Part shown: piece after piece, positions 5,213 through 31,854 of the stretch
Layout of the letters: the number at the start of each line of letters is the position of its first letter
Position numbering within the stretch: position 1 is the first letter of the stretch
Source of the DNA: Actinomycetes bacterium
GTDB taxonomy: Bacteria > Actinomycetota > Acidimicrobiia > Acidimicrobiales > RAAP-2
Assembly: GCA_021793515.1 (NCBI GenBank)
Contig: JAJYSP010000003.1
Coordinates: forward strand, 1 to 64,000
Direction: 5' to 3'
Length of the DNA stretch: 64,000 nucleotides
The notes under the pieces: model-generated
Database searches by the model: none
What the model was told of the DNA's origin: nothing
The model's input: the letters and a program-made list of their open reading frames with translations, nothing else
Translations under genes and position numbers: made by a program

Positions 5213-5277
5213 AGGCCCTCCTTGATCTGTTTGGTGTTCTTGGTCGAACCTCAAACAATCAGAAAGGGCCCCTCTCT

Positions 5278-5302
5278 GTCAACAACCTTCACGGGAATCA
5301 CA
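5278..5302 (-). repeat. IS481 terminal inverted repeat, right
   Basis: Begins GTCAACAAC and ends GGGAATCACA, the complement of the left repeat with three central mismatches. Confidence 0.85.
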
Positions 5303-5308
5303 ACTAGA
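5303..5308. repeat. Right target-site copy of the IS481 insertion
   Basis: ACTAGA directly follows the right terminal repeat and pairs with ACTAGG at 4248-4253. The first five bases are identical. The prepilin peptidase stop begins at the next base. Confidence 0.65.
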
Positions 5309-6094
5309 TCAGAAGTGCCACTGGAGGTTCTGGAACGGGGCGAGCAGTTCCGGTCCGGCGAAGATTGCGACGTAAGTGCCGAGTGCGAGGAAGACGCCGT
5401 ACGGGATGGGCTGGCGGCGATTCATTCGTTTCGTCGCGATAAGGGCGATGCCGATGACTACACCGGCGAAGTTGGCGACGAAGAAACCGAGTATGGCGTA
5501 GCCGACGCCGAGCCAGCCGAGACCGAGCCCGAGCACGAGGCTGAGCCGCACGTCACCGAAGCCGAGGGCGCGTGGACTGACGGCGTTCATGGTGAAGAAG
5601 AACACGAACCAGATAGCACTGACGAGCACGGCGACGGCGAGACGGTGCCACTGGCCATGGTCGAGCGCGGTGCCCACGAGCGTGACCACCTGGAGGGCGA
5701 GCACCACGTAGACAATCCGCTTGGGCAAGATGAGGAACTCGCCGTCGATCAGGCCGAGGGCGACGAGCCCCGCGACGAGCACTAGGAGTGCCGGGAGGTC
5801 CGCGCGGTAGCCGACGCGCGCCGCCGTACCGGCAAAGAGGATCGCCGTCGTGAGCTCGATCAACGGGTAACGCGGCGAGATGGGCTCGCCACAGTTTCGA
5901 CAGTGACCGCGAAGGATGAGCCAGGAGAGAACGGGAATGTTGTCCCGGGGCGCGATCGGCTCGCTGCAGCGCGGACAGGTTGATCGAGGTCGCACGATCG
6001 AGAGGTGTCGAGGCACCCGGTAGATGACGACGTTGAGGAACGAGCCCACGATGAGACCGAGTAACGCACAGTAGATGATGAGGATGCTCAACAC
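5309..6094 (-). CDS. pilD: Prepilin leader peptidase / N-methyltransferase
   Basis: A 261-residue polytopic membrane aspartyl protease that cleaves prepilin leaders after Gly and methylates the new N-terminal Phe. The N-terminus has GLIVGSFLNVVIYRVP, followed by the zinc-type pair CPRC (40-43) and CRNC (65-68) that marks bifunctional enzymes. The two catalytic aspartates are in GLIDGE (Asp117) and GFGDV (Asp181). At least six further hydrophobic segments follow. Length is normal. It would process the pilin at 1747-2343. It is transcribed towards pilT and the DUF429 gene, and its stop lies immediately beside the IS481 target. Confidence 0.93.
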   Translation of the reverse strand: MLSILIIYCALLGLIVGSFLNVVIYRVPRHLSIVRPRSTCPRCSEPIAPRDNIPVLSWLILRGHCRNCGEPISPRYPLIELTTAILFAGTAARVGYRADLPALLVLVAGLVALGLIDGEFLILPKRIVYVVLALQVVTLVGTALDHGQWHRLAVAVLVSAIWFVFFFTMNAVSPRALGFGDVRLSLVLGLGLGWLGVGYAILGFFVANFAGVVIGIALIATKRMNRRQPIPYGVFLALGTYVAIFAGPELLAPFQNLQWHF

Positions 6095-6328
6095 GACCTG
6101 TGACCTTCAATCAGCGAAGACGATGATTCGCCACGAGCCGCTGGTACACGGAACTGCCGGTACGGTTTGTCGAGATGGGAACGGCTTTTACGCACGCGTG
6201 ACGCCCTTTAGGCCCGACGGTAGATACACCAAATTCGCAGGTCGCCTCACTATAGTTCGATGTGACCAGCGCGTCGCTCATAGTGCGATGGTGTTTTGGC
6301 GACCACTGGCCGAGGAGAGGATCAGTTC

Positions 6329-9217
6329 TTGGGCAACGTATTGAGTCCGCGGTACCGATACGGTGCGAGTTTTATCGACGAGGCGTCTGGGGTCCGCTTT
6401 GAGGGGCACCACCCGTTCGAGCGACCCGACCTCTGGCAGCGATATCTCGAAGACGCTGAAGGCAAGTATCGAAGTTTCGGCTTCGAAGGCACGTTGCGAC
6501 GCCGCGAGCTCGATGAAGGTCAAGGGGTCCCACTCTTTTTCGTCGGTTTTGCACCCGACGGCGAGCCGGTCGCCGGTTTGCGTTTCCACGGCCCCCTCGA
6601 GAACCGGTGGGGAGCGGCGCTGATCGAGGAGATGGCTGATCTTCCCGAACTCGATGAGATCGGGGCCTTGATCGACAACGAAGCCCGATTCGGCATCATC
6701 GAGGCGAAAGGTGGGTGGGCCAAGGGCGAGGCCGTCCTCGGGGTGCGTCTCGTGGCCACCATCTCGCGCATCATGACACACGCCGCCGTGTGGCTCGGGG
6801 CCGAACGCACGATCGCCGCGGTCTCGGATCTCCTGATCCCCGTCGGGAAGGTTGCCGGTGGCGAAGTACTGAGTCGAAACCACGTCCCGTTCCCCGACGA
6901 GCGCTACCGCACCTACGCGGTCACGTGGCAGCGATCGCGATCGTACGACCTCGCCGACGAGGTAAACCAGCGCGCACTGCGCCTCGAGGCCGAACAGCTG
7001 GCCCGCGGACCACGATCCGATATAGCGCGACCAGTCGATGTCGCCTCGACCCGTACGCACTCATTCCAACCGCTGGTGCTCGACGTCACGACCCGCAGCG
7101 ACCGTGAAGTCCTGCGAATCCTTCGACAAGACCCGTCTCTCCAGGTGGTCGACCGGTTGGAGGACCAGCGGGACCAGTTGACCGAGTTGCGGCCCGCACC
7201 GTCGCCGAATCAGCTGAACGAAGCGCCGCGCTGGGTCTACTACCCGTGGCGGCGCGCGGTCGTGCGGCTGCTCGGACCCCGAACGTTCGCGAAGGTTCGA
7301 TTGGACCGGAACCGGAACAAATTGACGAGTGAGGAGCAGAGCCGATTACGCGGCTTGCGCGTCGGCGTGGTTGGGGCAAGCGCCGGTCATTCCATCGCGC
7401 ACGTCATCGCGATGGAAGGCCTCGCGGGCGAGATCCGTGTCGCCGACTTCGACGCCATTGATCTCACCAACCTCAATCGGATCCCCGCCAGTGTGCTCGA
7501 CCTCGGCGTCAACAAGGCCGTCGTCGCGGCTCGGCGGATCGCCGAGATCGACCCCTATCTTCGGGTGTCGACGTTCACTGAGGGCGTCACGGCTGACAAC
7601 CTCGACCGATTCCTCGATGGCCTCGACGTCGTGATCGAGGAGTGTGACTCGCTGGACATGAAGTTCCTCGTCCGCGAGCACGCGCGCGCCCAACGGATAC
7701 CGGTCCTGATGGAGACGAGTGACCGCGGGGTCCTCGATGTTGAACGCTTCGACCTCGAACCGGGTCGGGCCATCTTCCACGGCATCTTGGGTGACGTCAC
7801 CGCCGAGAAGGTGGCGGGACTCTCGCTCCTAGAGAAGGGGCCTTATCTGTTGAAACTGCTCGGTGCCGATGACGTCTCCGCACGTGGAGCCGTGACCTTC
7901 TTCGAGATCGGCTCCACGATCACGGGTTGGCCTCAGCTCGCGAGTGAGGTGACCCTCGGTGCTGCGACGGTGGCAGCCGCGGTGCGTCGGCTCGGACTCG
8001 GTGGTGCACTGCCGTCGGGGCGGGTTCGATTTGATGTCGAGGAACTACTCGGTGGGCTTGCGCCTGTCGATCTCTCGGTGGACGCCGATATCGACTTGTC
8101 CGCGCCCCCGCCCATTGACCCGGTACCCGAGGACGCCGACGACATCACCCTTATCGTCGATGCCGCACGACGTGCGCCGTCGGGTGGCAACAGCCAGCCG
8201 TGGCGCTTCGAAGCCGACGCCGACGAGGTTCGGTTTTTCCTCGTACCCGAGCGGACCTCGGTGATGGACGTCCGGCATCGCGGGAGCTACGTCGCACTCG
8301 GAGCGGCACTCTTCAATGCACGAGTCGCCGCGGCGTCGCTCCATCGACTCGGCACGGTGAAACTGTTCCCCGAAGGGGCTCCTAGTCATCACGTGGCGAC
8401 GCTGCGACTGGGAACGACGACGGATCAGCAAATCGCACCGCTCTATCCGATCATTCCCGAGCGGATCTCCAACCGCCAACCTGGTCAACCCGCGCCCATC
8501 GAACAAGCAGTCGAGCAGCTGCTCACGCGAGTGGTCGCGGCCGAGGGGGCGACGCTGCACGTTGTCACCGATCGAACACGACTCAATGAAGGGGGCGAGT
8601 TACTCGGTCAGTGCGACCGGCTCCGCTTCCTCATCCCGCAGGTGCACGAGCAGATGCTCGGTGAGTTGAAGTTCCCGGGTCGTGACCCCCTCTATGAGGG
8701 ACTCGACGTTCGCACGCTCGAGATGGACCCGACGAGCATCGCCGCCGTGGGCCTCCTGCGCCGCCCCGAGGTCATGGCGCACCTGGCTGATTGGCGGGCG
8801 GGTCAGATGCTCGGACTTCGAACTCAGTTGATGGTCGGCACGAGTTCGGCGCTGGCGGCGATCACGATCCCTCGAGCCGACCCGCTCTGGTACCTGCGGG
8901 CCGGTTCGGCCATTGAGCGGTTCTGGTTGAGTGCGCAGCAACACGGACTGGCGGTGCAGCCGGTCGCCCCGATCTTCCTCTACGCGACCGACGAATTCGA
9001 TCTGCTCGCCTTGGGTGGTGAACGGCACCTTGACCACATGCACGACCTTCGTGAGCGGTTCGACGCACTCTGGGACCTCGTAGAAGGTGAGACCGTTACG
9101 ATGGTGTTACGGGTGAGCCACGCCCCCGCAGCGAGTGCGCACAGCATCCGCCTCCCGCTGTCCGAGGTGCTCGTTCGCGAGACCGATCTCGCTGATTGTG
9201 GTGAAAATCCGCTCTAA
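6329..9217 (+). CDS. Rv1355c-family fusion: GNAT-like, E1/ThiF-like and nitroreductase domains
   Basis: About 962 residues in three parts. Residues 1-225 look like a GNAT/acyl-amino-acid-synthase-type acyltransferase (EPVAGLRFHGPL; then WLGAERTIAAVSDLLIPVG and VPFPDERYRTYAV near the end). Residues about 335-560 are an E1/ThiF-type adenylating Rossmann domain: GVVGASAG, ADFDAIDLTNLNRI (the DxDxxxxxNLNR ATP site), GVNKA and VVIEECDS. I see no catalytic Cys or CxxC zinc pairs. Residues about 600-930 are an Acg-like nitroreductase with the FMN motif APSGGNSQPWRF. The E1-nitroreductase part resembles M. tuberculosis Rv1355c ('MoeY'), and the next gene resembles its neighbour Rv1354c, so the pairing is conserved. 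I favour TTG 6329, 8 bases after GAGGAGAGG; TTG 6296 is also open. The substrate is unknown. Confidence 0.75.
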   Translation: MGNVLSPRYRYGASFIDEASGVRFEGHHPFERPDLWQRYLEDAEGKYRSFGFEGTLRRRELDEGQGVPLFFVGFAPDGEPVAGLRFHGPLENRWGAALIEEMADLPELDEIGALIDNEARFGIIEAKGGWAKGEAVLGVRLVATISRIMTHAAVWLGAERTIAAVSDLLIPVGKVAGGEVLSRNHVPFPDERYRTYAVTWQRSRSYDLADEVNQRALRLEAEQLARGPRSDIARPVDVASTRTHSFQPLVLDVTTRSDREVLRILRQDPSLQVVDRLEDQRDQLTELRPAPSPNQLNEAPRWVYYPWRRAVVRLLGPRTFAKVRLDRNRNKLTSEEQSRLRGLRVGVVGASAGHSIAHVIAMEGLAGEIRVADFDAIDLTNLNRIPASVLDLGVNKAVVAARRIAEIDPYLRVSTFTEGVTADNLDRFLDGLDVVIEECDSLDMKFLVREHARAQRIPVLMETSDRGVLDVERFDLEPGRAIFHGILGDVTAEKVAGLSLLEKGPYLLKLLGADDVSARGAVTFFEIGSTITGWPQLASEVTLGAATVAAAVRRLGLGGALPSGRVRFDVEELLGGLAPVDLSVDADIDLSAPPPIDPVPEDADDITLIVDAARRAPSGGNSQPWRFEADADEVRFFLVPERTSVMDVRHRGSYVALGAALFNARVAAASLHRLGTVKLFPEGAPSHHVATLRLGTTTDQQIAPLYPIIPERISNRQPGQPAPIEQAVEQLLTRVVAAEGATLHVVTDRTRLNEGGELLGQCDRLRFLIPQVHEQMLGELKFPGRDPLYEGLDVRTLEMDPTSIAAVGLLRRPEVMAHLADWRAGQMLGLRTQLMVGTSSALAAITIPRADPLWYLRAGSAIERFWLSAQQHGLAVQPVAPIFLYATDEFDLLALGGERHLDHMHDLRERFDALWDLVEGETVTMVLRVSHAPAASAHSIRLPLSEVLVRETDLADCGENPL

Positions 9218-9237
9218 ATCACGTCGAAAAATATTTC

Positions 9238-9266
9238 TTGCCTAATTCATCGCGCCGTCGTACGAT
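9238..9266 (+). promoter_or_regulatory. Predicted sigma-70 promoter of the GAF-GGDEF-EAL gene
   Basis: TTGCCT (9238-9243) and TACGAT (9261-9266) are separated by exactly 17 bases. The predicted transcript start is near 9273, leaving a leader of about 75 bases before ATG 9349. This gives the c-di-GMP gene its own promoter in an otherwise short gap. Confidence 0.6.
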
Positions 9267-9348
9267 TAACGGGATGGGCTCGTGCTGGTCACGGGCTGAA
9301 TCGGGTACGAGCGACAGTCTGCGCTGTCATGAGGGACTAGGGCAATCC

Positions 9349-11652
9349 ATGAGCAGTACCGTCGACTCCTATCTAGAGCGGGCCCGCAATGAGGCCCGGC
9401 TCGTCGTCGAATCGCTCGTGCATGTCGTCGCGGGCACCGAGGTCGTGGCCGTCTTCGCCGGTGAGAACACCGTGATTCCAGATTTCGAGATGGAGCCGAT
9501 GATCACGGCGGGGGCCGAAGATGCCTACGCGGCGATCATCGAACGCGTCCGTGTAGCGCTGCGAGACGGTGGTTCGATGGGGGCGATCACGTGTGACGTT
9601 TTCGGCGTCGAGTGGGGTGCGCTCGTCGAACCGATCGCGAACGAAAATGGGCGGGCCATCGGTGCGTTGGTGGTTGCACGTCACGGTCGGACGTGGTCCA
9701 AGCGGGAACGCTCGGTCGTCACGGCCTTCGCGAGTTTGTTGTCGCACATCGCCACCCTCGCGGTGCGTGAGCGCGTCCTCTTGCACCAACAGCGACTGGA
9801 CGAACTCGTGGCGAGCGTCGCGGAACACCTCATGCCCGCGACGGCGACGACACGACACGAAGTCTTGCAGTGGACGATTCGGGCGCTGGGCGAGTTTCTC
9901 GGCTCCGACGTTGCCCTCATGCGACGGAACGACCACGTTCGCGGACTCAGCATCTTTGAGGCCGAGTGGCCGGTACGTGAGAACATCCCCGATCCCGACC
10001 CGCTCGGCGAGGTGCCGTTTGACGCTGACCCGATCTTCGCGGCCACCCGCGACCTGAAAGCCCCGTATCTCACGGGCATTGCCGATGACGCCGACGACGA
10101 GTACAAGCAGCACATCGAAGAGGTCGCCGGCCCCACGCCCGCCGCCGGAGCCGCCGTCCCACTGTTGATGGGTGACACGACCTGGGGCGTGATCGGCTTC
10201 ATCCACTTTCAGAACCACGCGTGGGTCCCCGCCGAGATCAACGCGCTGCAAGCCGTCGCGTCGATGCTCGTCCAACTCCAAGCCCGGATCGACGCCGAAG
10301 AGCGGATCATTTTCAACGCGAATCACGACGAGTTGACGGGCCTGCCAAACCGGCGCGCACTGATTTCCGAGCTCAAGACGCGTCTCGCTAATCGCCGTGA
10401 CACCGCGGTCATGGTGATCGACCTTGACCGGTTCAAGGTCATGAATGACTACCTCGGTCACGTCAACGGCGACCGGCTTCTCGTCACAATGGCGGACCGG
10501 ATTCAGACGAGTATCCGCGCTGGGGACTTTGCCGCGCGACTCGGTGGTGACGAGTTCGTCTTCCTCGTGGACCGAGCGCGCAGTGAGATGGAGGCGCTCG
10601 CTAGTGCCTATCGGATCCTTGAGGTCATCTCCCAACCAGTCGAGATCGCGGGCCAGGTCATGAACCACACGGCGAGCGTCGGTATCGCGCTCTCCCAACC
10701 GGGCGCGAGTGCGGTCGAAATGCTCGGTCGGGCCGACGCCGCGATGTACACCGCGAAGTCACGTGGTCGGAATCGGGCGGTGGTGTTCGATCTGGACCTC
10801 CACCTCGCCATCGACGAACGGTCCCAGACGGAACTGATGCTGCGCGAGGCGATCGACACCGGTGGGCTACGCCTGCACTTCCAACCCGAGGTCGACCTCC
10901 AGAGCGGGAAATTGCTCGCCGTTGAGTCACTCGTTCGCTGGCAGCACCCGACCCGTGGTCTGCTCGTCGCCTCGGACTTCATCACCGTGGCCGAGGAAAC
11001 GGGGCTGGTCTCCACGCTCGGTCGCTGGGTCTTCGCCGAGGCCTGTCGTCAACTCAGCGCGTGGGGTCACGAGTATCCGAACCTCGACTTCACGGTCCGC
11101 GTCAACATGTCACCAGCCGACTTCAAGGTCGGCGATCTCGTTGAATTCGTGGAGGGCTGTCTCACTCGATTCGACGTGCCCGGCAATCGGTTGTGCGTGG
11201 AGATCACGGAATACGCGGTCGTGGACGACCCCGAACAGACCGCGCGGATCCTTCGGGGGTTCCAGGCGCTCGGTATCGAGATCGCCCTCGACGACTTTGG
11301 CACGGGGTTTGCCTCGATGACCGAATTGAAGAATCTGCCCGTCGACTTCTTGAAGTTGGACATGAGCTTCGTGCGCGGCATCAGTAACGACCCCTTCGAT
11401 CACGCCATCGTGGACGCAATCATTCGACTCGGCAAGGCCCTCGGTAAAGAGATCATCGCTGAAGGGGTTGAAACGCGTGTCATCGTCGAGCGGCTGCTGG
11501 AGCTCGGCTGTCACCGAGGCCAAGGTTTCCTGATCTCGAAGCCGGTCGCGTCGGTTGATCTCGGTCAACTACTACGCGCCGGGTCGACTCCCCAGTCACT
11601 GTTACGGGTTGGCGGTGCGGTAGATCCGGCGTGGGAGATCCAGCCATGGTGA
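9349..11652 (+). CDS. GAF-GAF-GGDEF-EAL cyclic-di-GMP cyclase/phosphodiesterase (Rv1354c-like)
   Basis: A 767-residue cytoplasmic protein. Two GAF-like sensor domains occupy about 1-330. A GGDEF diguanylate cyclase follows, with RLGGDEFVF at about 396-404 and an RxxD inhibitory site (RAGD) five residues before it. The EAL phosphodiesterase has the signature as ESL (about 525) and keeps the metal and base residues visible as NMSP, VEITEY, ALDDFGTG, LKLD, AEGVE and GQGF. Both catalytic sites look complete, so it may make or break c-di-GMP depending on GAF ligands. I choose ATG 9349, because the upstream in-frame extension is not coding-like and overlaps the promoter. It follows the E1/nitroreductase fusion as in mycobacteria and overlaps the next gene. 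Confidence 0.9.
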   Translation: MSSTVDSYLERARNEARLVVESLVHVVAGTEVVAVFAGENTVIPDFEMEPMITAGAEDAYAAIIERVRVALRDGGSMGAITCDVFGVEWGALVEPIANENGRAIGALVVARHGRTWSKRERSVVTAFASLLSHIATLAVRERVLLHQQRLDELVASVAEHLMPATATTRHEVLQWTIRALGEFLGSDVALMRRNDHVRGLSIFEAEWPVRENIPDPDPLGEVPFDADPIFAATRDLKAPYLTGIADDADDEYKQHIEEVAGPTPAAGAAVPLLMGDTTWGVIGFIHFQNHAWVPAEINALQAVASMLVQLQARIDAEERIIFNANHDELTGLPNRRALISELKTRLANRRDTAVMVIDLDRFKVMNDYLGHVNGDRLLVTMADRIQTSIRAGDFAARLGGDEFVFLVDRARSEMEALASAYRILEVISQPVEIAGQVMNHTASVGIALSQPGASAVEMLGRADAAMYTAKSRGRNRAVVFDLDLHLAIDERSQTELMLREAIDTGGLRLHFQPEVDLQSGKLLAVESLVRWQHPTRGLLVASDFITVAEETGLVSTLGRWVFAEACRQLSAWGHEYPNLDFTVRVNMSPADFKVGDLVEFVEGCLTRFDVPGNRLCVEITEYAVVDDPEQTARILRGFQALGIEIALDDFGTGFASMTELKNLPVDFLKLDMSFVRGISNDPFDHAIVDAIIRLGKALGKEIIAEGVETRVIVERLLELGCHRGQGFLISKPVASVDLGQLLRAGSTPQSLLRVGGAVDPAWEIQPW

Positions 11653-16305: not shown

Positions 16306-17796
16306 ATGACGCTCTCAGGGGATAGACCGAGCCCGTTGCGCTCGCTGCGCTACCTCGACGCGTTCCTCGATTCGACGGTGATCGGCTTCGCCTACTTCGA
16401 AGACGGCGTGGTGCGCGACTGTAACGAGGCCATTGCCCGTCTACTCCACACAACCGTCGACCAGCTCGTCGGCTTGGACGTGTTGAGCGGCATGCTCCAG
16501 GCACCCAACAACGAAGTTCCCTTCTACATCGAGAATCCTGAAGACCTCGCTGGTTTGGACATCGACACGGCGCAGACGGACGTCGTGGTCGGCGTCAATT
16601 TCGCGGACAAGCCGCGGCGCTGGCTCTCGATTGACACCTACCCCGTGCCCGAGCTCGGTCACCGGGGTGGCGTCATCGCGTCGTTCGACGACGTCACCCG
16701 GGAATTTCGTCGCGAACGGATGTTGCGGCTCTTCTACGAGGTGAGCAGCACGATCGCCGTCGCCGAAGACGTCGACGAGGCGCTGAACAGCCTCGTCGAA
16801 GGACTTTGCTCGATCGGCGGCTACCAAACGGCGTGGATAACCTTCGAGACCGGTGACCCGGACGGACGGCTCGAGATCGCTCACCGAGCGGGGGCCGTCG
16901 GCTACCTCGACGGGCTCGAACTCACCGCGGACCCGATGTCGGGCCGTGGCCCAACGGGACGATCCCTGCGTGAACAGCAGGTCCAGGTCGTCCAGCACGT
17001 CGCTGGTGATGATGACCTGTCGCCCTGGCACGATCGCGCGAAGTCCTACGGGATCGATTCGATCGTCGCGCTGCCGTTCGCGATCGGTGATCGGCGGGCC
17101 GTCGTGAGTGTCGCGGACCACGATATCTTCGTCTTTGACGACGAGACGATCCTCGAGCTGCGGGGACTGCTCGGTGAGGTCGAGATGCTCATCGCGCGCG
17201 TGAGGGCCGTGACGGACCTGCGTCGTTCACTCGAAGGCACCGTTGCGGCGATGACTCGGATCACCGAGATCCGCGACCCCTACACCGCGGGTCACCAGAT
17301 GCGCGTCAGCGCACTCAGCCGGGCGATGGCCACTTGGCTCGGACTCGACGAGGAACTGGTCGAGGTGATCGCGAAGAGTGCGGCGTTGCACGATCTCGGC
17401 AAGATCGTCGTGCCCGCTGAGATCCTCGGACGTCCCGGCAAGCTCAGCGCGCTCGAGATGGAGGCGGTCCAGCGTCACTGCGTCGTCGGCGCCGAAGTCT
17501 TGAAGGAGTCATCGCTCTCGGCGGAGTTCGTCGACGTCGCGCGTCACCACCACGAGCGACTTGACGGCTCAGGCTACCCCGACGGTCTTCGGGATGGCGA
17601 GATCTCGTTACCCGCTCGCATCGTTGCGGTGGCTGATGTCTTTGAGGCGATGACCCATCACCGACCGCACCGCCCGCGCTTCAGCGTCGACGAGGCGCTC
17701 GCCGAGCTCGTCGCGGGTGCCGGGATCCGCTACGACTCGGGTGTGGTCGAGGCCTGCGGTGCGGTGCTCGCCTCGGGGTTCGACGTCGACGGCTGA
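16306..17796 (+). CDS. PAS-GAF-HD-GYP cyclic-di-GMP phosphodiesterase (2)
   Basis: A 496-residue paralog of the preceding gene. PAS (about 20-140) begins DAFLDSTVIGFAYFEDG, then GAF (about 150-300; EDVDEALNSLVEGLCSIGGY), then HD-GYP with DPYTAGHQMRVS, catalytic LHDLGK (about 361-366), RHHHERLDGSGYPDGL and AVADVFEAMTHHRPHRP. All metal ligands expected in HD-GYP enzymes are in place. I start at ATG 16306, which follows GGGG and lies after the promoter; the frame is open further upstream, but that part overlaps the previous gene. Its last 67 bases overlap the end of the minus-strand GGDEF-EAL gene. Confidence 0.88.
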   Translation: MTLSGDRPSPLRSLRYLDAFLDSTVIGFAYFEDGVVRDCNEAIARLLHTTVDQLVGLDVLSGMLQAPNNEVPFYIENPEDLAGLDIDTAQTDVVVGVNFADKPRRWLSIDTYPVPELGHRGGVIASFDDVTREFRRERMLRLFYEVSSTIAVAEDVDEALNSLVEGLCSIGGYQTAWITFETGDPDGRLEIAHRAGAVGYLDGLELTADPMSGRGPTGRSLREQQVQVVQHVAGDDDLSPWHDRAKSYGIDSIVALPFAIGDRRAVVSVADHDIFVFDDETILELRGLLGEVEMLIARVRAVTDLRRSLEGTVAAMTRITEIRDPYTAGHQMRVSALSRAMATWLGLDEELVEVIAKSAALHDLGKIVVPAEILGRPGKLSALEMEAVQRHCVVGAEVLKESSLSAEFVDVARHHHERLDGSGYPDGLRDGEISLPARIVAVADVFEAMTHHRPHRPRFSVDEALAELVAGAGIRYDSGVVEACGAVLASGFDVDG

Positions 17797-19865
17797 GTGG
17801 GCCAGTGCGCCTTGCCGAGTAAGGGGGCCGTGTCGTCGGCCGGGACGGCCCGAGAGAAGAAGAAACCCTGGCTAAGCCGACAGCCCGCGTCGCGCAGACG
17901 ATCGAACTGGTCGATCGTCTCAACCCCTTCAGCCACCACCGACACACCGTGCTGCTCACCGAGGGCCACGATGAACGCGACGAGGGCTTCGTTGTAGCCA
18001 ATGCCGTGCGTGGGGCGCACGAAGGACTGATCGATCTTGACGAACTGGAGCTGGAGGTTCATCAGGTAGGCGAGGGAGGAGAGGCCCGAGCCGAACTGGT
18101 CGATCGCGACGCCGACGCCGAGTTCGGCGAGTTCAGCGATGATCGACGCTGACCGGTTCGGGTCTTGAAGTGCGACGTGCTCGGCGACCTCGAGCACGAG
18201 TCGGCTCGCCGCGAGTCCGCTGGCGCGAAGCGCCGCGACGACCACGGTCGTTAGGTCATCGTCATAGAACTGGCGGGCCGAGAGGTTGACGGTGACGTAG
18301 GGGGCCGCAGGGTCGGTCCACGTCGCCGCCGTGCGAGTTGCTTCAGTCAGCGCGAATGCGCCGAGGTCACCAATGAGGTCGCTCGATTCAGCGAGACCGA
18401 GGAACTCGGCGGGTCCGACCCAACCGCGGGTCGGGTGGTTCCAGCGCATAAGGGCCTCGAAGCCGACGACGAGGGAACTGGTGTCATCGACGATCGGTTG
18501 ATAGTGCATGACGATCTCACCGGCCTCGAGCGCCTGACGCAGCTCCTGGAGCTGCTCGAACCGGCCCATCGCGTGTTGACGCAGTGACGGCGAGAAGATG
18601 GCGTACCGTCCGCGACCGAGTCGTTTGGCCTCGTAGAGGGCGAGGTCGGCCTCCTCGATGATCGGCGAGTCGATGGGGGTGTCCGCGCTCCAGATCGCGA
18701 CGCCAACGCTCGCGTACTGCCGGATCTCGATACCGAGGATGACGAAGGGTTCCTCGAGCGCGGCGAGCAGCCGCTCGGCGACGTGGTTGATTTGTTCGGC
18801 CTGTCGCACACCCTCGACGAGATAGAGGAACTCGTCGCCCCCGAAGCGACTGAGGGTATCGGCGGTGCGGGCGACCTCGTCGAGCCGACGCGCCACACCG
18901 ATCAGCAACTGGTCGCCGATGACGTGACCGTGGGTGTCGTTGACGACTTTGAAGTCATCGAGGTCGAGCATGAGCACCGCGCCGTATCCGCCGTGACGGG
19001 TGACTTTGGCGCGAGCCTGGCCGAGTCGATCCTCGATGAGGGTCCGGTTCGCGAGGCCCGTGAGCGGGTCGTGCAGCGCTTGGTGCGCGAGCTGGGCGGT
19101 GAGCAGACGCTCCTCGGTGATGTCGCGTTCGCTGATCACGCTGTAGAGCAAGTTGCCGTCGTCGTCGTAGGTGGCCGAGCGCGAGACCTCGACGACGATC
19201 ACCCGACCGTCACGGTGCAGGTAGCGCTTGACGTAGCGGTCGCGGCTCGTCTCGTGGCCCTGTACCCGTTGATGGGAACTCTCCGTGACGCCGAAGTCCA
19301 CGGGGTAGGTGAAGTGCTGGGAGTCGCGTCCGACGAGTTCGTCAATCGATCGTCCCAGGAGCTCACAGAAGGCAGGGTTGGCCGCCACGATCCGATCCTC
19401 GGCGTCGGTGAAGGTCATCGGCGACATCGCGGTCTCGAACGCCAGTTGAAACTTGAGGGCTGAGTCGTCCCGCTCAGCCTCGACACGACGCAACGCGGAG
19501 AGGTCGCGCACCGCGGCGAGCGAGCACTGTTCGCCACCCCACTCGATGGTCGACAGCGCGATGTCCACCGTGATCCGGCGCCCGTCGTGGTTCACGAGGG
19601 CGATATCGAGGTGCCCACCGTTACGCCGTTCCATCCCTCGCGCAAGAAAGTCTGCGGCGAGGTCGTGGTGGCGCAACCGGTCCTCCTCGGGTATGAGCCG
19701 GTCAATGGAACTTCCGACCAGGTCTAGGACTTCGTAGCCGGCCATATAGCCGAAGGCGTTGTTCACCGCGCGTATGACACCGCTCTGGTCGATCACAAGC
19801 ACACCGTCCGGCATTGCGTTGAGGATGTACTGCCACGAAGTTGTCGCGTCCACGAAGTGGTCCAC
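17730..19865 (-). CDS. PAS-PAS-GGDEF-EAL cyclic-di-GMP enzyme (1)
   Basis: About 711 residues. Two PAS domains (about 5-130 and 140-265; MPDGVLVIDQSG and MSPMTFTDAEDRI), GGDEF with RFGGDEFLY (about 340-348) and RTAD (RxxD I-site) upstream, then EAL with FEALMRW (about 468-474), VNLSARQF, VLEVAEH, AIDQFGSG, VKIDQSF, AEGVE and SQGFFFS. The second metal Asp of the DDFG motif is Gln here (AIDQFGSG), so phosphodiesterase activity may be reduced. The start is GTG 19865, after AAGGGCAGG; upstream in-frame sequence is the antisense of the next gene. The 3' end overlaps the convergent HD-GYP gene by 67 bases. Confidence 0.86.
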   Translation of the reverse strand: MDHFVDATTSWQYILNAMPDGVLVIDQSGVIRAVNNAFGYMAGYEVLDLVGSSIDRLIPEEDRLRHHDLAADFLARGMERRNGGHLDIALVNHDGRRITVDIALSTIEWGGEQCSLAAVRDLSALRRVEAERDDSALKFQLAFETAMSPMTFTDAEDRIVAANPAFCELLGRSIDELVGRDSQHFTYPVDFGVTESSHQRVQGHETSRDRYVKRYLHRDGRVIVVEVSRSATYDDDGNLLYSVISERDITEERLLTAQLAHQALHDPLTGLANRTLIEDRLGQARAKVTRHGGYGAVLMLDLDDFKVVNDTHGHVIGDQLLIGVARRLDEVARTADTLSRFGGDEFLYLVEGVRQAEQINHVAERLLAALEEPFVILGIEIRQYASVGVAIWSADTPIDSPIIEEADLALYEAKRLGRGRYAIFSPSLRQHAMGRFEQLQELRQALEAGEIVMHYQPIVDDTSSLVVGFEALMRWNHPTRGWVGPAEFLGLAESSDLIGDLGAFALTEATRTAATWTDPAAPYVTVNLSARQFYDDDLTTVVVAALRASGLAASRLVLEVAEHVALQDPNRSASIIAELAELGVGVAIDQFGSGLSSLAYLMNLQLQFVKIDQSFVRPTHGIGYNEALVAFIVALGEQHGVSVVAEGVETIDQFDRLRDAGCRLSQGFFFSRAVPADDTAPLLGKAHWPTQPSTSNPEASTAPQASTTPES

Positions 19866-19947
19866 TACCTGCCCTTGTTGGTCGCCGCGCCACTGGTAAA
19901 AAGCCCGCCCGCTCAAGCGTAGTCTCGTCAGTCTCGCCCGGGGAGGC

Positions 19948-22900
19948 TCAGGTCTTCGAAATTGCTGTGATCCTCGAGAGCCGCTCCCGGGGCCGCGTAG
20001 CCAGCTGCGCAAAGACCTCATCCTCAGGCACGGGCGGCGAGAGCAGGAACCCCTGGACCAACTGACAGCCGAGCGCGCGCAACTGCGCCAGCTGTTCGGT
20101 GGTCTCGACACCCTCGGCGAGCATCGTGACCCCGAGATCCTGACCGAGGGCGAATACGGCGTCGAGGACGACGTCGTGGTTCGGTCGCTCACCGAGGGAG
20201 TGGACGAAGGATCGGTCGATCTTGACCATCTGGGGATTCAGTTCGGCGAGGCTTGAGAGGGATGTGTGACCAGTCCCGAAGTCGTCAAGCGCCGCACCCA
20301 CCCCGATGGCGCGGAGGCGCTCGATGATCGAGATCGTCTTGGCGAGGTCGGCCGAGGCAATCGCCTCGGTGATCTCGAGTACCAGTCGTGACGGCGCCAG
20401 GCCGACCTCGGCTAGCACGTCGGCCACGAGCGGGACGAGTTCGGGACTTCGAAACTGCACCGCCGACAGGTTGATCGACACGTAGCACTGGTCGCCGTAG
20501 GAGCCGTCGACGCCCCACGATGCGGCCGCTCGCACGGCCTCACGGATGGCGAAGTCCCCGAGGCTATAGATGAGGTCGCTTTGCTCGGCGATCGGGATGA
20601 AGACCGACGGCGGGATCGAACCCTCACGTGATGAGTTCCAGCGCATTAGTGCCTCGAACCCGACGACCTGGTAGGTCGGTAGGGCGATGATCGGCTGGAA
20701 GTGCATCGCAACCTCGCTCGAGCGAAGGGCGTGACTGAGCGACTGGGCGAGCGTAAATCGCTGGACGGCCGAGGCGAGCATCGCCGGTTGGAAGATCTCG
20801 TAGTGGCCACGACGATTACGTTTGGCCTCGTACATGGCGGTGTCGGCGCGTTTGATGCACTCGGCGCCATCGAGGGAGCCGTCGCTGTACAGCGCGACGC
20901 CGATGGTTGCGCGTTGCTCGATAGTCAGACCATCGAGCGAGAACGGTTCGTCGAGCACGTGCAGGAGCCGGTCGGCGATGGCCGCGGCCTCGTCGGGGCT
21001 GGTGAGACCTTCGGCGAGGTAGAGGAACTCGTCGCCGCCGACGCGCCCGAGGGTGTCGATGGAGCGCGAGACGAGCTCGAATCGTCGAGCCACACCAACG
21101 AGCAGTTGATCGCCGATGTGGTGTCCGTAAGTGTCGTTCACACCCTTGAAGTCGTCGAGGTCGATCAGCAGCACGGCGCCGTGGCCCCCGTTGCGTATGA
21201 GCCGTTCCCGGGCTTGTCCCAGGCGGTCCTCGAAGAGCGCGCGGTTGGCCAGACCCGTCAACGGGTCGTGCAGCGCTCGGTGCAGGAGCTGCTCGGACAA
21301 CTGGCGCTCCTCGGTGATGTCGCGTTCCGAGGCGATGAAGTACAGGATCGCGCCGTCGTCGCCGCGAACGGGCGTCTTGAGGACCTCGACGACGACGGTC
21401 TGACCCGTTCGGTGAATGAATCGCTTGGTGTACTTGATCTGCTCGACTTCACCGGTCACGAGACGGCGTCGGGCGTCGTGGGCCGTACCTCGGTCGTCGG
21501 GGTGTGTGAACCAGGCGGAATCGCGCCCGACCAGCTCGTCACGGCTTCGGCCGACCAGGTCAACGAAGGCGTCGTTGACGTCGAGCAACACGTCGTCGAG
21601 CCCGACGAAGACCATCGGTGCCATGTTCTCGCTGAAGGCCAGCCGAAAGCGCCGTTCCGACTCAGCCAGCGCCGATTCGGCCCTTGCCAGTGCGTCGTAG
21701 GCGTCACGCGCCACGTCGAGCGCGTCGCGCGTTTCGGTGACCGCCGACACGTGGGCGAGACCGAGTTCGAGCTCATGGACGAGCTCTTCGAGGTCGAGCA
21801 TGATTGCCGCGTCGATGCCGTCAGCTCGGTCGTGGAACACGCTCACCGCGTACGCCGAACCTCGCACACGCAAGGCGACCGCGGCCGCACTGCGCAGTCC
21901 GAGGCGTTCGGCGTAGTCGTGCCACGCCGGACTTCCGTGCTCGGAGGCGCCGTAGAACACCGCTGAACCGGAGGTGATCGCTTCGACGCCCGGTCCGTCG
22001 CGCGGATCGGGCCACTGGTCGGTCGCGGTCGGCGGCGCTACCACGCGTGTCTCGGTCGTCGAGCCGTAGGACACGAGGCGATATCCGCCGAGGTCTACGA
22101 GCAGTTGACAGAACTGACCGAGAAGTTCCGACTCGTCGGTGGCCACGATGGCCAATCGGCGCACGTGGCTCAGCATGGCCGTCGAGCGCTCACGTCGCCG
22201 GCGCTCGGTGCTGTCCAGGACCGAGACGATGAACCGGCGGATACTCCCGTCGCTCGCCCGTACCGTTGACGCGGTGACGTCGACTTCGACGACGCGCCCC
22301 GTGGCGTGGACGTAGCGTTTGGCGAAGCGTACGGCATCGAGTTCACCCGCGATGAGTCGGGCGTGAGCGTGCTCGGTGAGGTCGAGGTCGTCGGGGTGGG
22401 TGAACTCTCGGGTTCGGCGTCCGACGAGATCGAGTCGTGCAATGCCCACGAGTCGGGCGAAGGCGTCATTGGCGACGGTGATCACGTCGTGATGGTCGGT
22501 GAAGAACATGGGCGCCATCGTGTGTTCGAAGGCCATCCGGTAGTCCGCCTCGTGTTCGGCGAGCAGGGATACGGCGGCCATCTTGAGCGCGCGAGTCGGC
22601 GATGGTGGCGCCAGGGAGTCATCAATGATCGACACGGCGGCGACCACCATATTCTCGCCCTCCACGCGCACGGGGGAGAGGGCAATCCCCACGGGGAATG
22701 TCCTTCCGTCATGGTGTCGCAACTGATGGCTGTGGTCGCTCATGAGCCGGGGTGTGGGGGACTCCTGATAGCGAGCGCGGTGGGCGGCGTGCGCCTCGCG
22801 CTGATCATCGGGAACGAGTCGCTCGATTGAGGTACCGACGAGTTCGTCGGCCGCGTAGCCAGCGAGGGTGGCGACGGTGTCACTGACGTAGCCGATGATG

Positions 22901-22977
22901 CCGTGGGCGTCAACGATGATGATGTCGTCTGGGAGTACGTCGCGTAGTTGTCGCCACTCGTTGGACTGGTTCAGCAT
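19948..22977 (-). CDS. Multi-PAS GGDEF-EAL cyclic-di-GMP enzyme (2)
   Basis: A 1,009-residue cytoplasmic protein: PAS (about 8-125), PAS (about 145-265), a GAF-like region (about 275-410), a third PAS (about 440-565), GGDEF with RVGGDEFLY (about 644-652) and RSID as I-site, and EAL with FEALMRW (about 772-778). EAL residues NLSAVQF, VLEITEA, ALDDFGTG, VKIDRSF, AEGVE and QGFLLSPP are all present, so both activities are plausible. The ATG start at 22977 gives MLNQSNEW. It lies 82 bases upstream of the related PAS-GGDEF-EAL gene, which shares wording across the third PAS, GGDEF and EAL parts, so the pair probably arose by tandem duplication. Confidence 0.88.
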   Translation of the reverse strand: MLNQSNEWRQLRDVLPDDIIIVDAHGIIGYVSDTVATLAGYAADELVGTSIERLVPDDQREAHAAHRARYQESPTPRLMSDHSHQLRHHDGRTFPVGIALSPVRVEGENMVVAAVSIIDDSLAPPSPTRALKMAAVSLLAEHEADYRMAFEHTMAPMFFTDHHDVITVANDAFARLVGIARLDLVGRRTREFTHPDDLDLTEHAHARLIAGELDAVRFAKRYVHATGRVVEVDVTASTVRASDGSIRRFIVSVLDSTERRRRERSTAMLSHVRRLAIVATDESELLGQFCQLLVDLGGYRLVSYGSTTETRVVAPPTATDQWPDPRDGPGVEAITSGSAVFYGASEHGSPAWHDYAERLGLRSAAAVALRVRGSAYAVSVFHDRADGIDAAIMLDLEELVHELELGLAHVSAVTETRDALDVARDAYDALARAESALAESERRFRLAFSENMAPMVFVGLDDVLLDVNDAFVDLVGRSRDELVGRDSAWFTHPDDRGTAHDARRRLVTGEVEQIKYTKRFIHRTGQTVVVEVLKTPVRGDDGAILYFIASERDITEERQLSEQLLHRALHDPLTGLANRALFEDRLGQARERLIRNGGHGAVLLIDLDDFKGVNDTYGHHIGDQLLVGVARRFELVSRSIDTLGRVGGDEFLYLAEGLTSPDEAAAIADRLLHVLDEPFSLDGLTIEQRATIGVALYSDGSLDGAECIKRADTAMYEAKRNRRGHYEIFQPAMLASAVQRFTLAQSLSHALRSSEVAMHFQPIIALPTYQVVGFEALMRWNSSREGSIPPSVFIPIAEQSDLIYSLGDFAIREAVRAAASWGVDGSYGDQCYVSINLSAVQFRSPELVPLVADVLAEVGLAPSRLVLEITEAIASADLAKTISIIERLRAIGVGAALDDFGTGHTSLSSLAELNPQMVKIDRSFVHSLGERPNHDVVLDAVFALGQDLGVTMLAEGVETTEQLAQLRALGCQLVQGFLLSPPVPEDEVFAQLATRPRERLSRITAISKT

Positions 22978-23063: not shown

Positions 23064-24275
23064 TTACGATGGCCCGCCGTCGAGCCAGTGGAGGAACGAG
23101 TCCAGCGCTTCATTCCAACGTTGCGGCTCCTCAAAGTAGGGAGAATGTCCCGCACCGGACACTTCGACGACACGGGCGTCGGGTAGCAGATCAGCGAGTG
23201 AGCGAATCACGGCCGGGGCGAACAGCTGATCGTGGTCGCCCACGATCAGGAGCGATGGCATGGTGAGCTGTGCCGCCTCGTTCTCGCCGTAGGTCACGTC
23301 GAGCAGTCGCATGATCACGGTGTCGGGATCCGCGGTACCCATACGCCCCAGTGACTGGTAGAGATGGGCGAGTTCGGGTGAACGGGCGCTGAACGCCTCG
23401 CCGAGGGCCGGGTGGTCGCCGAGCACGTCGCGCAGGGGTGCGCGTGGGCGAACGCGGTCACGCTGGGCGAGCAGCCGATCGGTCGTGAAGCCGCCGGTTG
23501 AATCGGTGAGCACGAGTGATCGCGCGAGGTGCGGTCGCGCGAGGGCGGCTGCGACAACGGTCCAACCGCCCATTGACTGGCCGACGAGGTCAGCCCGGTC
23601 GATGCCGATGGCGTCAAGTACCGCCAGCAAGTCGCCACTCGCGACGAGTGGGCCCGTTTGGTCGCCGCGGTCACTGGAGCGGCCATAACCGCGGTGGTCC
23701 CACGTGATGACGAGTCGCTCGGCGGCGAAGTGAGCGACCTGTTGGAACCAGCTCGCGTGGTTGCCACCGGCGCCGTGGCAGAGTACGAGGGGCGTTAGTT
23801 CGCTCGACTCGTCGCCGACGACCTCGTAGTAGAGATGCTCGCCGTCGTGCTCGACGAAGCCCGTGCGCCGCGCCGGGGCGGCGGCGTTTGTTGCGCGGTG
23901 GGCGTAGGCGACGCACTGCATTTCCACACGCGCGCCGAGCGCGAGATCGACCCCGCCCACAGTGATCCGCGCTGGCGGTGGGCCGTCGAAGTAGCGCTCG
24001 TAGACCTCGTTCATGGCGGCGAAATCGTCGAGGTCCGCGAGGTACACCGAGACCGACGCCACGTCGTCCCAGCCACAGTCGGCCGCGGCGAGGATGGTGG
24101 TGAGATTGGTGAGCGTTTGGTCGATCTCGGCCGCGAGCCCGCCGGTGACGAGCGCGCCACTGGCGTCGGTGCCGAGCGTGCCCGAGACGTACACGTAGTC
24201 GCCGGCACGCGTCGCGTGGGCGAACTGGGTTAGGCGGTGCACGCCGGGGACAACTACTCGCTGAACAGGGGCCAT
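23064..24275 (-). CDS. RidA-like / alpha/beta-hydrolase fusion protein
   Basis: A 403-residue cytoplasmic fusion. Residues 1-128 are a RidA/YjgF (Rid) domain: GDYVYVSGTLGTD, the ILAAADCGWDDVASVSVYLADLDD helix-strand unit, and PARITVGGVDLALGARVEM, where the Arg after PA is the position of the Rid active-site Arg. Residues about 137-400 are an alpha/beta hydrolase: CHGAGGN (oxyanion), WDHRGYGRSS, nucleophile Ser in GQSMGGW (about 235), an Asp in VGDHDQLF, and His in GAGHSPYF. In the Rut pyrimidine pathway these two activities are separate proteins (RutC and RutD) acting on aminoacrylate, so the fusion suggests a related imine/enamine or carbamate-like substrate. No rutA or rutB is nearby. The stand-alone 3-oxoadipate lactonase family is the closest alternative for the hydrolase part. 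Confidence 0.82.
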   Translation of the reverse strand: MAPVQRVVVPGVHRLTQFAHATRAGDYVYVSGTLGTDASGALVTGGLAAEIDQTLTNLTTILAAADCGWDDVASVSVYLADLDDFAAMNEVYERYFDGPPPARITVGGVDLALGARVEMQCVAYAHRATNAAAPARRTGFVEHDGEHLYYEVVGDESSELTPLVLCHGAGGNHASWFQQVAHFAAERLVITWDHRGYGRSSDRGDQTGPLVASGDLLAVLDAIGIDRADLVGQSMGGWTVVAAALARPHLARSLVLTDSTGGFTTDRLLAQRDRVRPRAPLRDVLGDHPALGEAFSARSPELAHLYQSLGRMGTADPDTVIMRLLDVTYGENEAAQLTMPSLLIVGDHDQLFAPAVIRSLADLLPDARVVEVSGAGHSPYFEEPQRWNEALDSFLHWLDGGPS

Positions 24276-24354
24276 GGCTCATCCTGACACGTGCGCGGAC
24301 TCGCTGTGACGGTAAGTTTCAGTCGTGGCCGGACAAAACTGGGTGGAGGTCGCA

Positions 24355-24885
24355 ATGAAACGGGTAACGAGGTCAGTGCTAGTGGCGGTCGCAGTGACCG
24401 GAATGTTCGGATTCGGGTTCACCGCACCCCTCGGCGCGGCGGGTGCGCGGGTCACGAGCGCCAACTGTCAGCCGTCCCAGCTGCGCGTCTCGGTGGCGCA
24501 GTCCGAGGGGGCGGCCGGGACCATCTACTACCCGATCGTTTTTGCCAACCGAGGTGGCGCGTGCTGGATCTGGGGCGTGCCGGGTGTCCAGCCCGTGGTC
24601 GGGGCGAAGCGTCACCCACAGGGCCCGCGCGCCACGAACGAGAGCGTCGGTCAGATGCCCGCTCGTCACCTCCTGGGTCACGATGCGGCTGTGAGCGTCG
24701 GCTACGGCGTCGCCGAGAGTGGCAACTACCCGGCTGCGACGTGTCGGGCTCGCAACGCGAGCGGCGTGATCGTGACCCTGGCACCGTTCATCCGCCCGAC
24801 GTATCTCGCACTTCGGATCTCGGTCTGTACGCGCCTCGCGAGCACCCACACCCGGTTACTCGTTGCCGGTCGAACGGGAGCCTGA
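24355..24885 (+). CDS. Secreted DUF4232-like protein
   Basis: A 176-residue exported protein. The N-terminus MKRVTRSVLVAVAVTGMFGFGF is a Sec signal peptide with cleavage likely after an AGA-type site near residue 35. The remainder has four to six cysteines in the DUF4232 pattern (ANCQPSQLRVS, GGACWIWG, CRARN, SVCTRL) seen in many actinobacterial secreted proteins of unknown role. ATG 24355 follows GGAGG at good distance, so I prefer it over GTG 24325. Its stop codon overlaps the -35 box of the next gene. Confidence 0.72.
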   Translation: MKRVTRSVLVAVAVTGMFGFGFTAPLGAAGARVTSANCQPSQLRVSVAQSEGAAGTIYYPIVFANRGGACWIWGVPGVQPVVGAKRHPQGPRATNESVGQMPARHLLGHDAAVSVGYGVAESGNYPAATCRARNASGVIVTLAPFIRPTYLALRISVCTRLASTHTRLLVAGRTGA

Positions 24886-29988: not shown

Positions 29989-31854
29989 ATGTCGGTCACC
30001 CCTGAGCCCGACGGCTCCTCTCCGTTCGACGAGCTCGACGCCACGCTCTACGGGGAGGGCTACCCAATGGGTCTGCCCGTCTTCGAAGAGCCCGTCGAGG
30101 CGCACCTGCGCAACCGGCGAACGGTGAACAGTCCGTCCCAGTTACTCCTGCTTCAAGAGCTCGTTCACTTCAAGGCCAGCCACGGGCGCTGGCACCTCGC
30201 CAAGGATCTCGTCGGGCTGGTGCGTCGCGGACACGGCAACGAGAAGGACGAGTCGTACTTCGACAAGCTCGGTCGTGAGTCCAAGCGTGGCAAGAGCGAG
30301 TCGTCGACCTACGGACTCGCGACCATCGACGGGCGCCCCGTCGTGCTCTACGCGATGAACTGGGACTTCTTTGCGGGCTCACTCGGCGTGATCTCGGGCG
30401 AGGCCTTCCAGGCGGCCGCGGACCTCGCAATCGCCAAGCACCTCCCGCTCGTCTCGGTCTACGCCTCGAGCGGGGTGCGCCAGCACGAGAACTTCGCCGG
30501 ACTCACCCAGATGACCCGCATGGTCGAGGCCATCCGGCTCTACAAGGAGAAGGTCGATCTGCCCCACGTGGCGGTGCTGCTCGGCAACGTCTGGGGCGGC
30601 GTCTCGGCGAGCGCCGTGCCCAACGCCGACCTCATTCTCGCGACCTCGGGCACGAACTTCGGCTTCGCCGGACCCAACGTGATCGAAGCCTTCGAGGGCA
30701 TCGCGGTGCCGAGTGACTCTCAGAGTGCCGAGACCAACCTGCTCGATCGCAACATCGACGTGGTGCTCGCCGACGTGGCCGAGCTCGTGTGGTATCTCGG
30801 TGCTGTCTACGCCACGACCGCAGCGCCCGAGCGACACAAGGAGCTCACCAAGGAGACCGAGCCGCTCGTGCGCAATCTCACGGCGCTCAACCAGCGCCGG
30901 GTCTACGCCTTCGGCGCCGCGGGCATCCACGGACCGCGCTTCGACGACATCACCGGCACGCCCGACCTCGTGCCGGCCGCCGTGCGCCCCCCGACATCGA
31001 GTGACCGCGCCGACGCCCTGCTCGAGCAGTACCAGGACCTCATCGCCGACGCGAACCGCGTCGACCTCGAGTTCATCGCGCAGTACGGCTTCACCGACGC
31101 GATCGCGCTTTATAACCACATCCAAGAGGCCGATGTGCGCCGCTACCCCGCGATCGTGGCCGCCTTCGCAAAGCTGGGCACTCAGCCCTTCGTCATTCTC
31201 GGCACCCAGCCCTCCTACCAGCGATACGGCGACTCGGTGATGAAGCGTCCGGCGAACCCTGGCCCCGAGGACTTCGCGCACCTCGCGCGCGTGCTCGAAG
31301 TGGGCGCTCGCCTCGGACTGCCGGCCCTGTTCGTGACCGACACCCTTGGGGCGAAGCCCACCCTCGAGAGCGAGCGGCGCGGTCAGTCCCGTCTCATCGC
31401 GCGATCGATCCTGCGCGGCATCGACTACCCGAGGCCCGTCATCTCACTGGTCGCGGGCGCACTCGGCAGCGGCGGGGGTCTCGCGACGACACCCATGGCC
31501 GACCACGTCGTCATGCTCGACAAGGCCATGGCCTACGTCGCCGAGCCGCGCTCGGCGGCCTCGATCCTCTATAAGACGCCCGAACCCACCCGCGAGCAGG
31601 TGAAGATGACGCTGGCCACCATGCGCTCGACTGCCCAGGACCAGTTGGATCTCGGCCTGATCGACGAGGTCATCCCCGAGGACCCGAACCCGTTCATCAC
31701 CGTCGAGCGGATCCACCGCTCGCTCCTGAAGACTTACGTCGAACTGTCCGCACTCTCGGAGCGAAAGCTACGTGCCCGCCGACACGAGCGGATCCGCGGC
31801 CTGCGGGCCTTTGACATCGTCCAAGAGGTCCCCACCGGCGCTGAGGACGAGTAG
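29989..31854 (+). CDS. Fused acetyl-CoA carboxylase carboxyltransferase (beta-alpha)
   Basis: A 621-residue carboxyltransferase that joins the AccD-like half (about 60-290) to the AccA-like half (about 340-610). Crotonase-type CoA and oxyanion regions are seen twice: VVLYAMNWDFFAGSLGVISGE and PLVSVYASSGVRQ in the first half, and FVTDTLGAKPTLESERRGQS and LVAGALGSGGGLA in the second. The N-terminal CxxC...CxxC zinc ribbon of bacterial AccD is absent. Biotin carboxylase and carrier protein are not in the window. The product would transfer CO2 from biotin to acetyl-CoA or another short acyl-CoA. Its stop directly abuts the stop of the convergent lipoprotein gene. Confidence 0.82.
   Translation: MSVTPEPDGSSPFDELDATLYGEGYPMGLPVFEEPVEAHLRNRRTVNSPSQLLLLQELVHFKASHGRWHLAKDLVGLVRRGHGNEKDESYFDKLGRESKRGKSESSTYGLATIDGRPVVLYAMNWDFFAGSLGVISGEAFQAAADLAIAKHLPLVSVYASSGVRQHENFAGLTQMTRMVEAIRLYKEKVDLPHVAVLLGNVWGGVSASAVPNADLILATSGTNFGFAGPNVIEAFEGIAVPSDSQSAETNLLDRNIDVVLADVAELVWYLGAVYATTAAPERHKELTKETEPLVRNLTALNQRRVYAFGAAGIHGPRFDDITGTPDLVPAAVRPPTSSDRADALLEQYQDLIADANRVDLEFIAQYGFTDAIALYNHIQEADVRRYPAIVAAFAKLGTQPFVILGTQPSYQRYGDSVMKRPANPGPEDFAHLARVLEVGARLGLPALFVTDTLGAKPTLESERRGQSRLIARSILRGIDYPRPVISLVAGALGSGGGLATTPMADHVVMLDKAMAYVAEPRSAASILYKTPEPTREQVKMTLATMRSTAQDQLDLGLIDEVIPEDPNPFITVERIHRSLLKTYVELSALSERKLRARRHERIRGLRAFDIVQEVPTGAEDE

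Follow-up and report, generated by a model that had tools for sequence, protein, structure and literature searches.

The 64,000-nucleotide stretch analysed here (the window; contig JAJYSP010000003.1 of an Actinomycetes bacterium of the order Acidimicrobiales) encodes on its reverse strand a protein in which a RidA-like domain is joined to an alpha/beta hydrolase. Such a gene raises two questions: whether the fusion is genuine and, if so, what the two halves accomplish together. An earlier note, made from the letters of the sequence, saw in it an echo of RutC and RutD of the Rut pyrimidine pathway, in which it had the two folds handle one reactive intermediate, and suggested substrate channelling in an unknown degradation route. 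The fusion and its active-site residues stood up to analysis; the shared RutC/RutD intermediate, the kinship with Rut and the dedicated degradation route did not.

Domain architecture and active sites

The fusion gene is an uninterrupted single frame of 403 residues (Table 1), and both domains exceeded their Pfam cut-offs within this one chain, as had been claimed. Ribonuc_L-PSP (PF01042) matched residues 16-124 with 96.1 bits (cut-off 27.3) and Abhydrolase_1 (PF00561) matched residues 162-384 with 107.5 bits (cut-off 25.8). AlphaFold modelled both domains with confidence (pTM 0.74, mean pLDDT 92.3); inside the chain, confidence was lowest in the linker (block 121-130, pLDDT 78) and in hydrolase residues 271-290. 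Since the linker varies in both length and sequence among the relatives of a 25-row alignment, it speaks for a loose tether between the domains. The protein is probably cytosolic. A promoter and terminator scan gave nothing exceeding chance.

Table 1. Position of the fusion gene, its domains and its active-site residues in the window.
Feature	Positions	Strand	Basis or remark
Fusion gene, complete, stop codon included	23064..24275	-	RidA-alpha/beta hydrolase, 403 aa; orthologues found
Rid (Ribonuc_L-PSP) domain, residues 16-124	23904..24230	-	Pfam PF01042; model strands and helices
Linker, residues 125-135	23871..23903	-	Alignment of relatives; pLDDT drop
Alpha/beta hydrolase domain, residues 136-397	23085..23870	-	Pfam PF00561; VIA-align structure matches
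R103, Rid arginine	23967..23969	-	Kept in 24/25 rows
E118, Rid glutamate	23922..23924	-	Kept in 21/25 rows
N89, Rid asparagine	24009..24011	-	Kept in 21/25 rows
S234, nucleophile in GQSMGG	23574..23576	-	Kept in 25/25 rows
D349, catalytic acid	23229..23231	-	Kept in 25/25 rows
H377, catalytic histidine	23145..23147	-	Kept in 25/25 rows

Active-site residues were compared in 25 rows, namely the window, 23 fused loci and L057. We take R103, E118, N89 and F18 to be the counterparts of Arg105, Glu120, Asn88 and Tyr17 of enteric RidA, going by the alignment of the sequence around them. The phenylalanine at the tyrosine position recurs in 21 of the 25 rows. In passages of PMC4433059, the arginine is described as required for imine hydrolysis by Rid proteins and phenylalanine as a conservative replacement for the tyrosine. 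By residue check, the arginine and glutamate expected of deaminating Rid subfamilies are both present, and R103, E118 and N89 are jointly retained in all 19 intact fusions. The hydrolase half belongs to the alpha/beta hydrolase superfamily by its PF00561 match and its Ser-Asp-His triad. The active-site residues were thus in place in both halves, as the earlier note had it.

Distribution of the fusion

Eighty-two loci were examined (80 from the search plus L008 and L009), and both domains lay in a single frame in 23 of them. L008 and L009 were taken as the same genomes as L040 and L039, respectively, because their hydrolase rows are identical. The fusion thus occurs in 21 further genomes, 22 with that of the window, of which three have a degenerate Rid half and 19, the window's included, are intact. 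Most fused copies come from metagenomic Acidimicrobiia; one (L051) belongs to the isolate Acidithrix ferrooxidans, and two records bear the titles Myxococcota (L054) and delta proteobacterium (L058). Within the genus of the window the fusion is patchy, with a full-length match in 2 of 36 congeners. A class-wide search of 296 genomes gave 15 matches at 1e-45, and both domains were spanned only in the genome of the window and in G264, which we regard as the same record as Acidithrix ferrooxidans from a match at the same contig place. At 1e-50, the hydrolase found matches in 17 of 377 myxococcal genomes; in two it was fused, in one it belonged to a coupled pair and in 14 no Rid adjoined it within the roughly 1.5 kb inspected on each side. 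None of the plasmid records matched both domains, and three matched the hydrolase only.

Both halves are under purifying selection: against L037, L038, L040 and L039, the window's gene has a pN/pS of 0.26-0.42 in its Rid half and of 0.24-0.34 in its hydrolase half. The idea that a sequencing error, a faulty assembly or the loss of a stop joined two genes artificially has one observation in its favour, a relative (L062) with the two halves in separate overlapping frames. However, 22 distinct genomes, drawn from many assemblies and including the Acidithrix isolate, have the frame open, and selection acts on either side of the join, so the chance of an artefact is practically negligible. The lost stop was accordingly rejected on the fused orthologues in independent assemblies, and the absence from relatives that the earlier note had envisaged did not materialise. 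The fusion is genuine and recurs in related bacteria.

It is a new domain architecture built from known families. A literature search, judged by titles and the beginnings of abstracts, found no paper describing a RidA-hydrolase fusion. Rid-Rid fusions and a step for detecting other fusions are mentioned in the available passages of PMC4433059, from which a hydrolase fusion is absent.

Relation to known families

The Rid half has in common with the RidA/YjgF/UK114 family (PF01042; TIGR00004) the fold and the site arginine, glutamate and asparagine. It differs in its fusion to a hydrolase, in forming its own lineage in the Rid tree and in its TIGR00004 score, 91.2 bits against a cut-off of 106.25.

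The Rut pathway places the same two superfamilies side by side, in RutC and RutD, but here they form a single chain in a genome where RutA has no match over cut-off (best 19.6 bits against 498.3 across the whole genome; as a control, two of 14 genomes scored above this cut-off). The earlier statement that no other rut genes lie nearby therefore holds as far as tested. An echo of RutC and RutD in the sequences themselves was not borne out, and identity with either was ruled out: 51.2 bits for RutC (TIGR03610; cut-off 169.1) and 69.8 bits for RutD (TIGR03611; cut-off 238.5). Nor do the two Rut proteins appear to share an intermediate, since RutC is described in passages of PMC8113886 as deaminating 3-aminoacrylate and RutD is modelled there as helping carbamate break down, with neither strictly needed.

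The best NCBIfam hits of the hydrolase half were the 3-oxoadipate enol-lactonase PcaD and PcaD-PcaC fusions; in the latter the partner is carboxymuconolactone decarboxylase instead of Rid. Identity with PcaD (TIGR02427) was excluded at 96.5 bits against a cut-off of 255.85. The top sequence match among solved structures was the Est816-type N-acyl homoserine lactonase/esterase 5egn (E 3.4e-20), which is only 26% identical and has no Rid domain. VIA-align gave Z 29.8 for esterase 4uhd, 29.2 for enol-lactonase 2xua and 28.4 for 5egn, rows within 1 Z being ties. By its modelled fold, the hydrolase half groups with small esterases and lactonases of an ordinary kind. Hydrolase chains dominated these structure searches, which barely covered the Rid half.

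Evolutionary history

The 22 actinobacterial fused rows grouped with L057 in a single clade of the hydrolase tree (100/100). Its sister clade (97/93), mostly Myxococcota, comprised one fused, one paired and five lone hydrolases, and L058 was placed elsewhere. In most rows of the tree (51 of 83), the hydrolase has no Rid partner. Two Rhodococcus records of this tree, L072 and L083, are labelled Cyanobacteriota, an evident label slip.

In the Rid tree, which rests on few columns, a 99/94 branch splits the 22 fused Rid domains (19 intact, three degenerate) and the Rid of L062 from all others, i.e., from 37 free-standing RidA and seven Rhodococcus/Nocardioides Rid proteins. By this split, the fused Rid domains seem to be a single lineage, some members of which lost the Rid half later. 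Indeed, E118, N89 and the SG loop are missing from L052, L055 and L056, and L057 has no Rid half left; all four retain the hydrolase, in the genomic position that the window's gene occupies. In the degenerate group, pN/pS was 0.44-0.52 for the Rid half, computed on the Rid segment alone without the frame upstream of the domain, and 0.29-0.44 for the hydrolase.

The likely starting point is seen in the myxococcal locus L062, a single metagenomic record in which rid and hydrolase are separate genes and the Rid stop TGA overlaps the hydrolase start GTG as GTGA. Genes that are translationally coupled are expected to overlap in this way, and the fusion probably arose from such a rid-hydrolase pair.

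Genomic neighbourhood and the proposed degradation route

Close relatives share the neighbours of the window's gene, including a PAS-GGDEF-EAL protein, an acyl-CoA synthetase, a DUF4232 protein and more genes of the run. Outside this close group the neighbours vary: FGGY kinase with Fic, a luciferase-like monooxygenase with dienelactone hydrolase, PTS proteins with TetR, and elsewhere RecG, TIR, enoyl-CoA hydratase or an aquaporin-type channel. Across the fusion loci compared there was no constant neighbour that would name a substrate. Because the neighbours vary, there is no support for a dedicated degradation operon, and the degradation route proposed earlier loses its footing with a gene that has no constant partners.

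Two loci had suggested a link to hydantoins. At L043, the fusion is preceded (4277-9796) by HyuA, HyuB, an isochorismatase-type hydrolase and DUF429. The best NCBIfam hits of this run were caprolactamase subunits, at under half of the cut-off. The other is L075 of Rhodococcus erythropolis, described below. Since Hydantoinase_B is missing from 12 of the 22 genomes examined, that of the window included, the link is not general and was dropped.

In Rhodococcus and Nocardioides, a Rid gene directly follows a hydrolase of another branch at all seven such loci. The same two families thus adjoin as in the fusion, but at these loci, L075 and L081 among them, they are separate genes in the opposite order, and both come from other branches than the halves of the fusion. 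At L075, the one annotated Rhodococcus locus, an IclR regulator, the hydrolase and the Rid gene face away from an NMT1/THI5-type ABC transporter whose binding protein has the pyrimidine-binding protein 3ix1 as its nearest solved relative (E 5.5e-12), and HyuA-HyuB-NmrA (hydantoinase A and B) lie further off. The segment 5632-11236 of L075 is perhaps an uncharacterised locus for uptake and breakdown of an N-compound.

The fusion as a possible substitute for RidA

No second Rid-family match was found in the window's genome (G000), G002, G343 or G345, and the second matches in G347, G348 and G355 were weak (46-53 bits). With a line for a strong match at 60 bits, set after the list had been seen, a second strong Rid match is missing in 7 of the 19 intact-fusion genomes and present in 12. 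Free-standing RidA occurs in 21 of 23 unfused congeners versus one of three fused ones, a suggestive, not significant pattern (Fisher p 0.052, 26 genomes). Where the Rid half is degenerate or lost, three of four genomes keep a free-standing Rid and G359 has none. The fusion may therefore act as the general RidA in genomes where it is the sole strong Rid protein.

In three congeners (G003, G019, G026), the free-standing RidA gene adjoins an IscA/HesB-like gene and glutamine synthetase genes; the names were read by eye, and the glutamine synthetase of G003 and G026 was also recovered via PF00120. In G000, G002 and G343, the HesB neighbour of this block was not found, and the adjacent glutamine synthetase was unmatched in a search run without a positive control; each of these genomes has one other copy. 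The missing HesB-RidA-glutamine synthetase block may be a real deletion or a gap of binning or assembly in these metagenome-assembled genomes.

Proposed function and competing explanations

The best explanation, to which we give a probability of about 0.45, is a stand-alone bifunctional enzyme with two working active sites, whose Rid half deaminates an enamine or imine that is perhaps the product of the hydrolase. The sequences show one chain with two intact domains, conserved vertically, and the fusion probably acts as a two-step enzyme. The hydrolase half would attack an ester, lactone or amide through S234-H377-D349, and the Rid half, presumably trimeric like other Rid proteins, would use R103 and E118 to hydrolyse an enamine or imine, yielding ammonia and a carbonyl compound. 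The two steps would be linked most economically if the hydrolase released the enamine, from an N-acyl enamine for instance, and the Rid domain cleared it before PLP enzymes were damaged or the pathway slowed down. Acetamidomethylene succinate hydrolase provides a precedent for enamide cleavage; a literature search for this enzyme returned nothing. We infer the hand-over from hydrolase to Rid not from chemistry but from the fusion itself, the coupled pair and the independent pairing in Rhodococcus. In support of the bifunctional enzyme, both catalytic sets are retained in 19 distinct fused genomes, the window's included. Purifying selection on both halves, the separate lineage of the fused Rid domains, the GTGA overlap in L062, the seven hydrolase-Rid loci of Rhodococcus and Nocardioides and the seven intact-fusion genomes with no second strong Rid match count in its favour as well. 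Passages of PMC7688666 place rid and N-formylmaleamate deformylase genes in the nicotine cluster of strain S33, and in passages of PMC9537276 a RidA-family protein is essential in the chitin-acid pathway, with no role known. A fusion by itself is no proof of channelling, as noted in part of PMC4921024.

Against the bifunctional enzyme stand the lone hydrolases, in 51 of 83 tree rows and 14 of 17 matching myxococcal genomes, from which it follows that the hydrolase does not need Rid, and the four loci where the Rid half decayed or vanished beside a remaining hydrolase. A further strong Rid protein in 12 of the 19 intact-fusion genomes and neighbours too variable to name a substrate also weigh against it. 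The losses of the Rid half, together with the triad kept in every row, the raised pN/pS of the Rid half in the degenerate group and the typically trimeric state of Rid proteins (passages of PMC4433059), favour the hydrolase as the actual enzyme and Rid mainly as a trimerising or ligand-sensing module, whose chemistry is being lost in some lineages. We nevertheless consider this unlikely, although deserving of serious attention, given the joint retention of R103, E118 and N89 in every intact fusion and a Rid pN/pS among close relatives about as low as that of the hydrolase. Rather less likely are two independent housekeeping functions, RidA repair of 2-aminoacrylate and an unrelated esterase, joined for co-expression only. 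The fusion as the only Rid match in four genomes, the skewed occurrence of free-standing RidA (p 0.052) and the varying neighbours would all fit. Against this reading, the fused Rid is a separate lineage and not a relocated housekeeping RidA, a separate reversed pairing exists in Rhodococcus, and gaps in the metagenome assemblies could account for the RidA block not found in G000, G002 and G343. An enzyme of a dedicated degradation pathway with channelling, acting on a hydantoin, lactam or pyrimidine-like substrate, is very improbable: the L043 run and the hydantoinase genes, transporter and 3ix1-like binding protein of L075 would suit it, but Hydantoinase_B is missing from more than half of the genomes and the remaining contexts have nothing in common.

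A more specific form of the bifunctional enzyme, which we put forward tentatively and hold to be somewhat doubtful, is a single-chain hydrolase-deaminase that cuts an enamide or enol-type ester and hands the enamine, as it forms, over to a Rid site of that same trimer, pre-empting the damage of its own reactive product. Such a partnership would have been reached at least twice: in Acidimicrobiia and Myxococcota by fusion or GTGA coupling, and in Rhodococcus and Nocardioides by a gene pair in reverse order. Rid proteins occur almost everywhere, and most of their subfamilies have no known substrate. By Rosetta-stone logic, the conserved fusion and the independent gene pairing hint that ester or amide hydrolysis, and not PLP enzymes or amine oxidases, is the source of some Rid substrates. 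The fusion, which the cultured Acidithrix ferrooxidans also carries, is a single cloneable protein on which both activities could be tried.

Other genes of the window

A 621-aa protein at 29989-31854 (+) has an AccD-like half followed by an AccA-like half of the acetyl-CoA carboxylase carboxyltransferase type; it reaches no curated NCBIfam cut-off, and relatives occur in 7 of 26 loci. Downstream of the fusion, 17730-22977 (-) encodes a tandem pair of PAS-GGDEF-EAL-type proteins, the nearer one with three PAS matches and the second assigned by eye from its translation. The DUF4232 protein at 24325-24885 (+) is divergent from the fusion gene and 49 bases off, and it too has relatives in 7 of 26 fusion loci.
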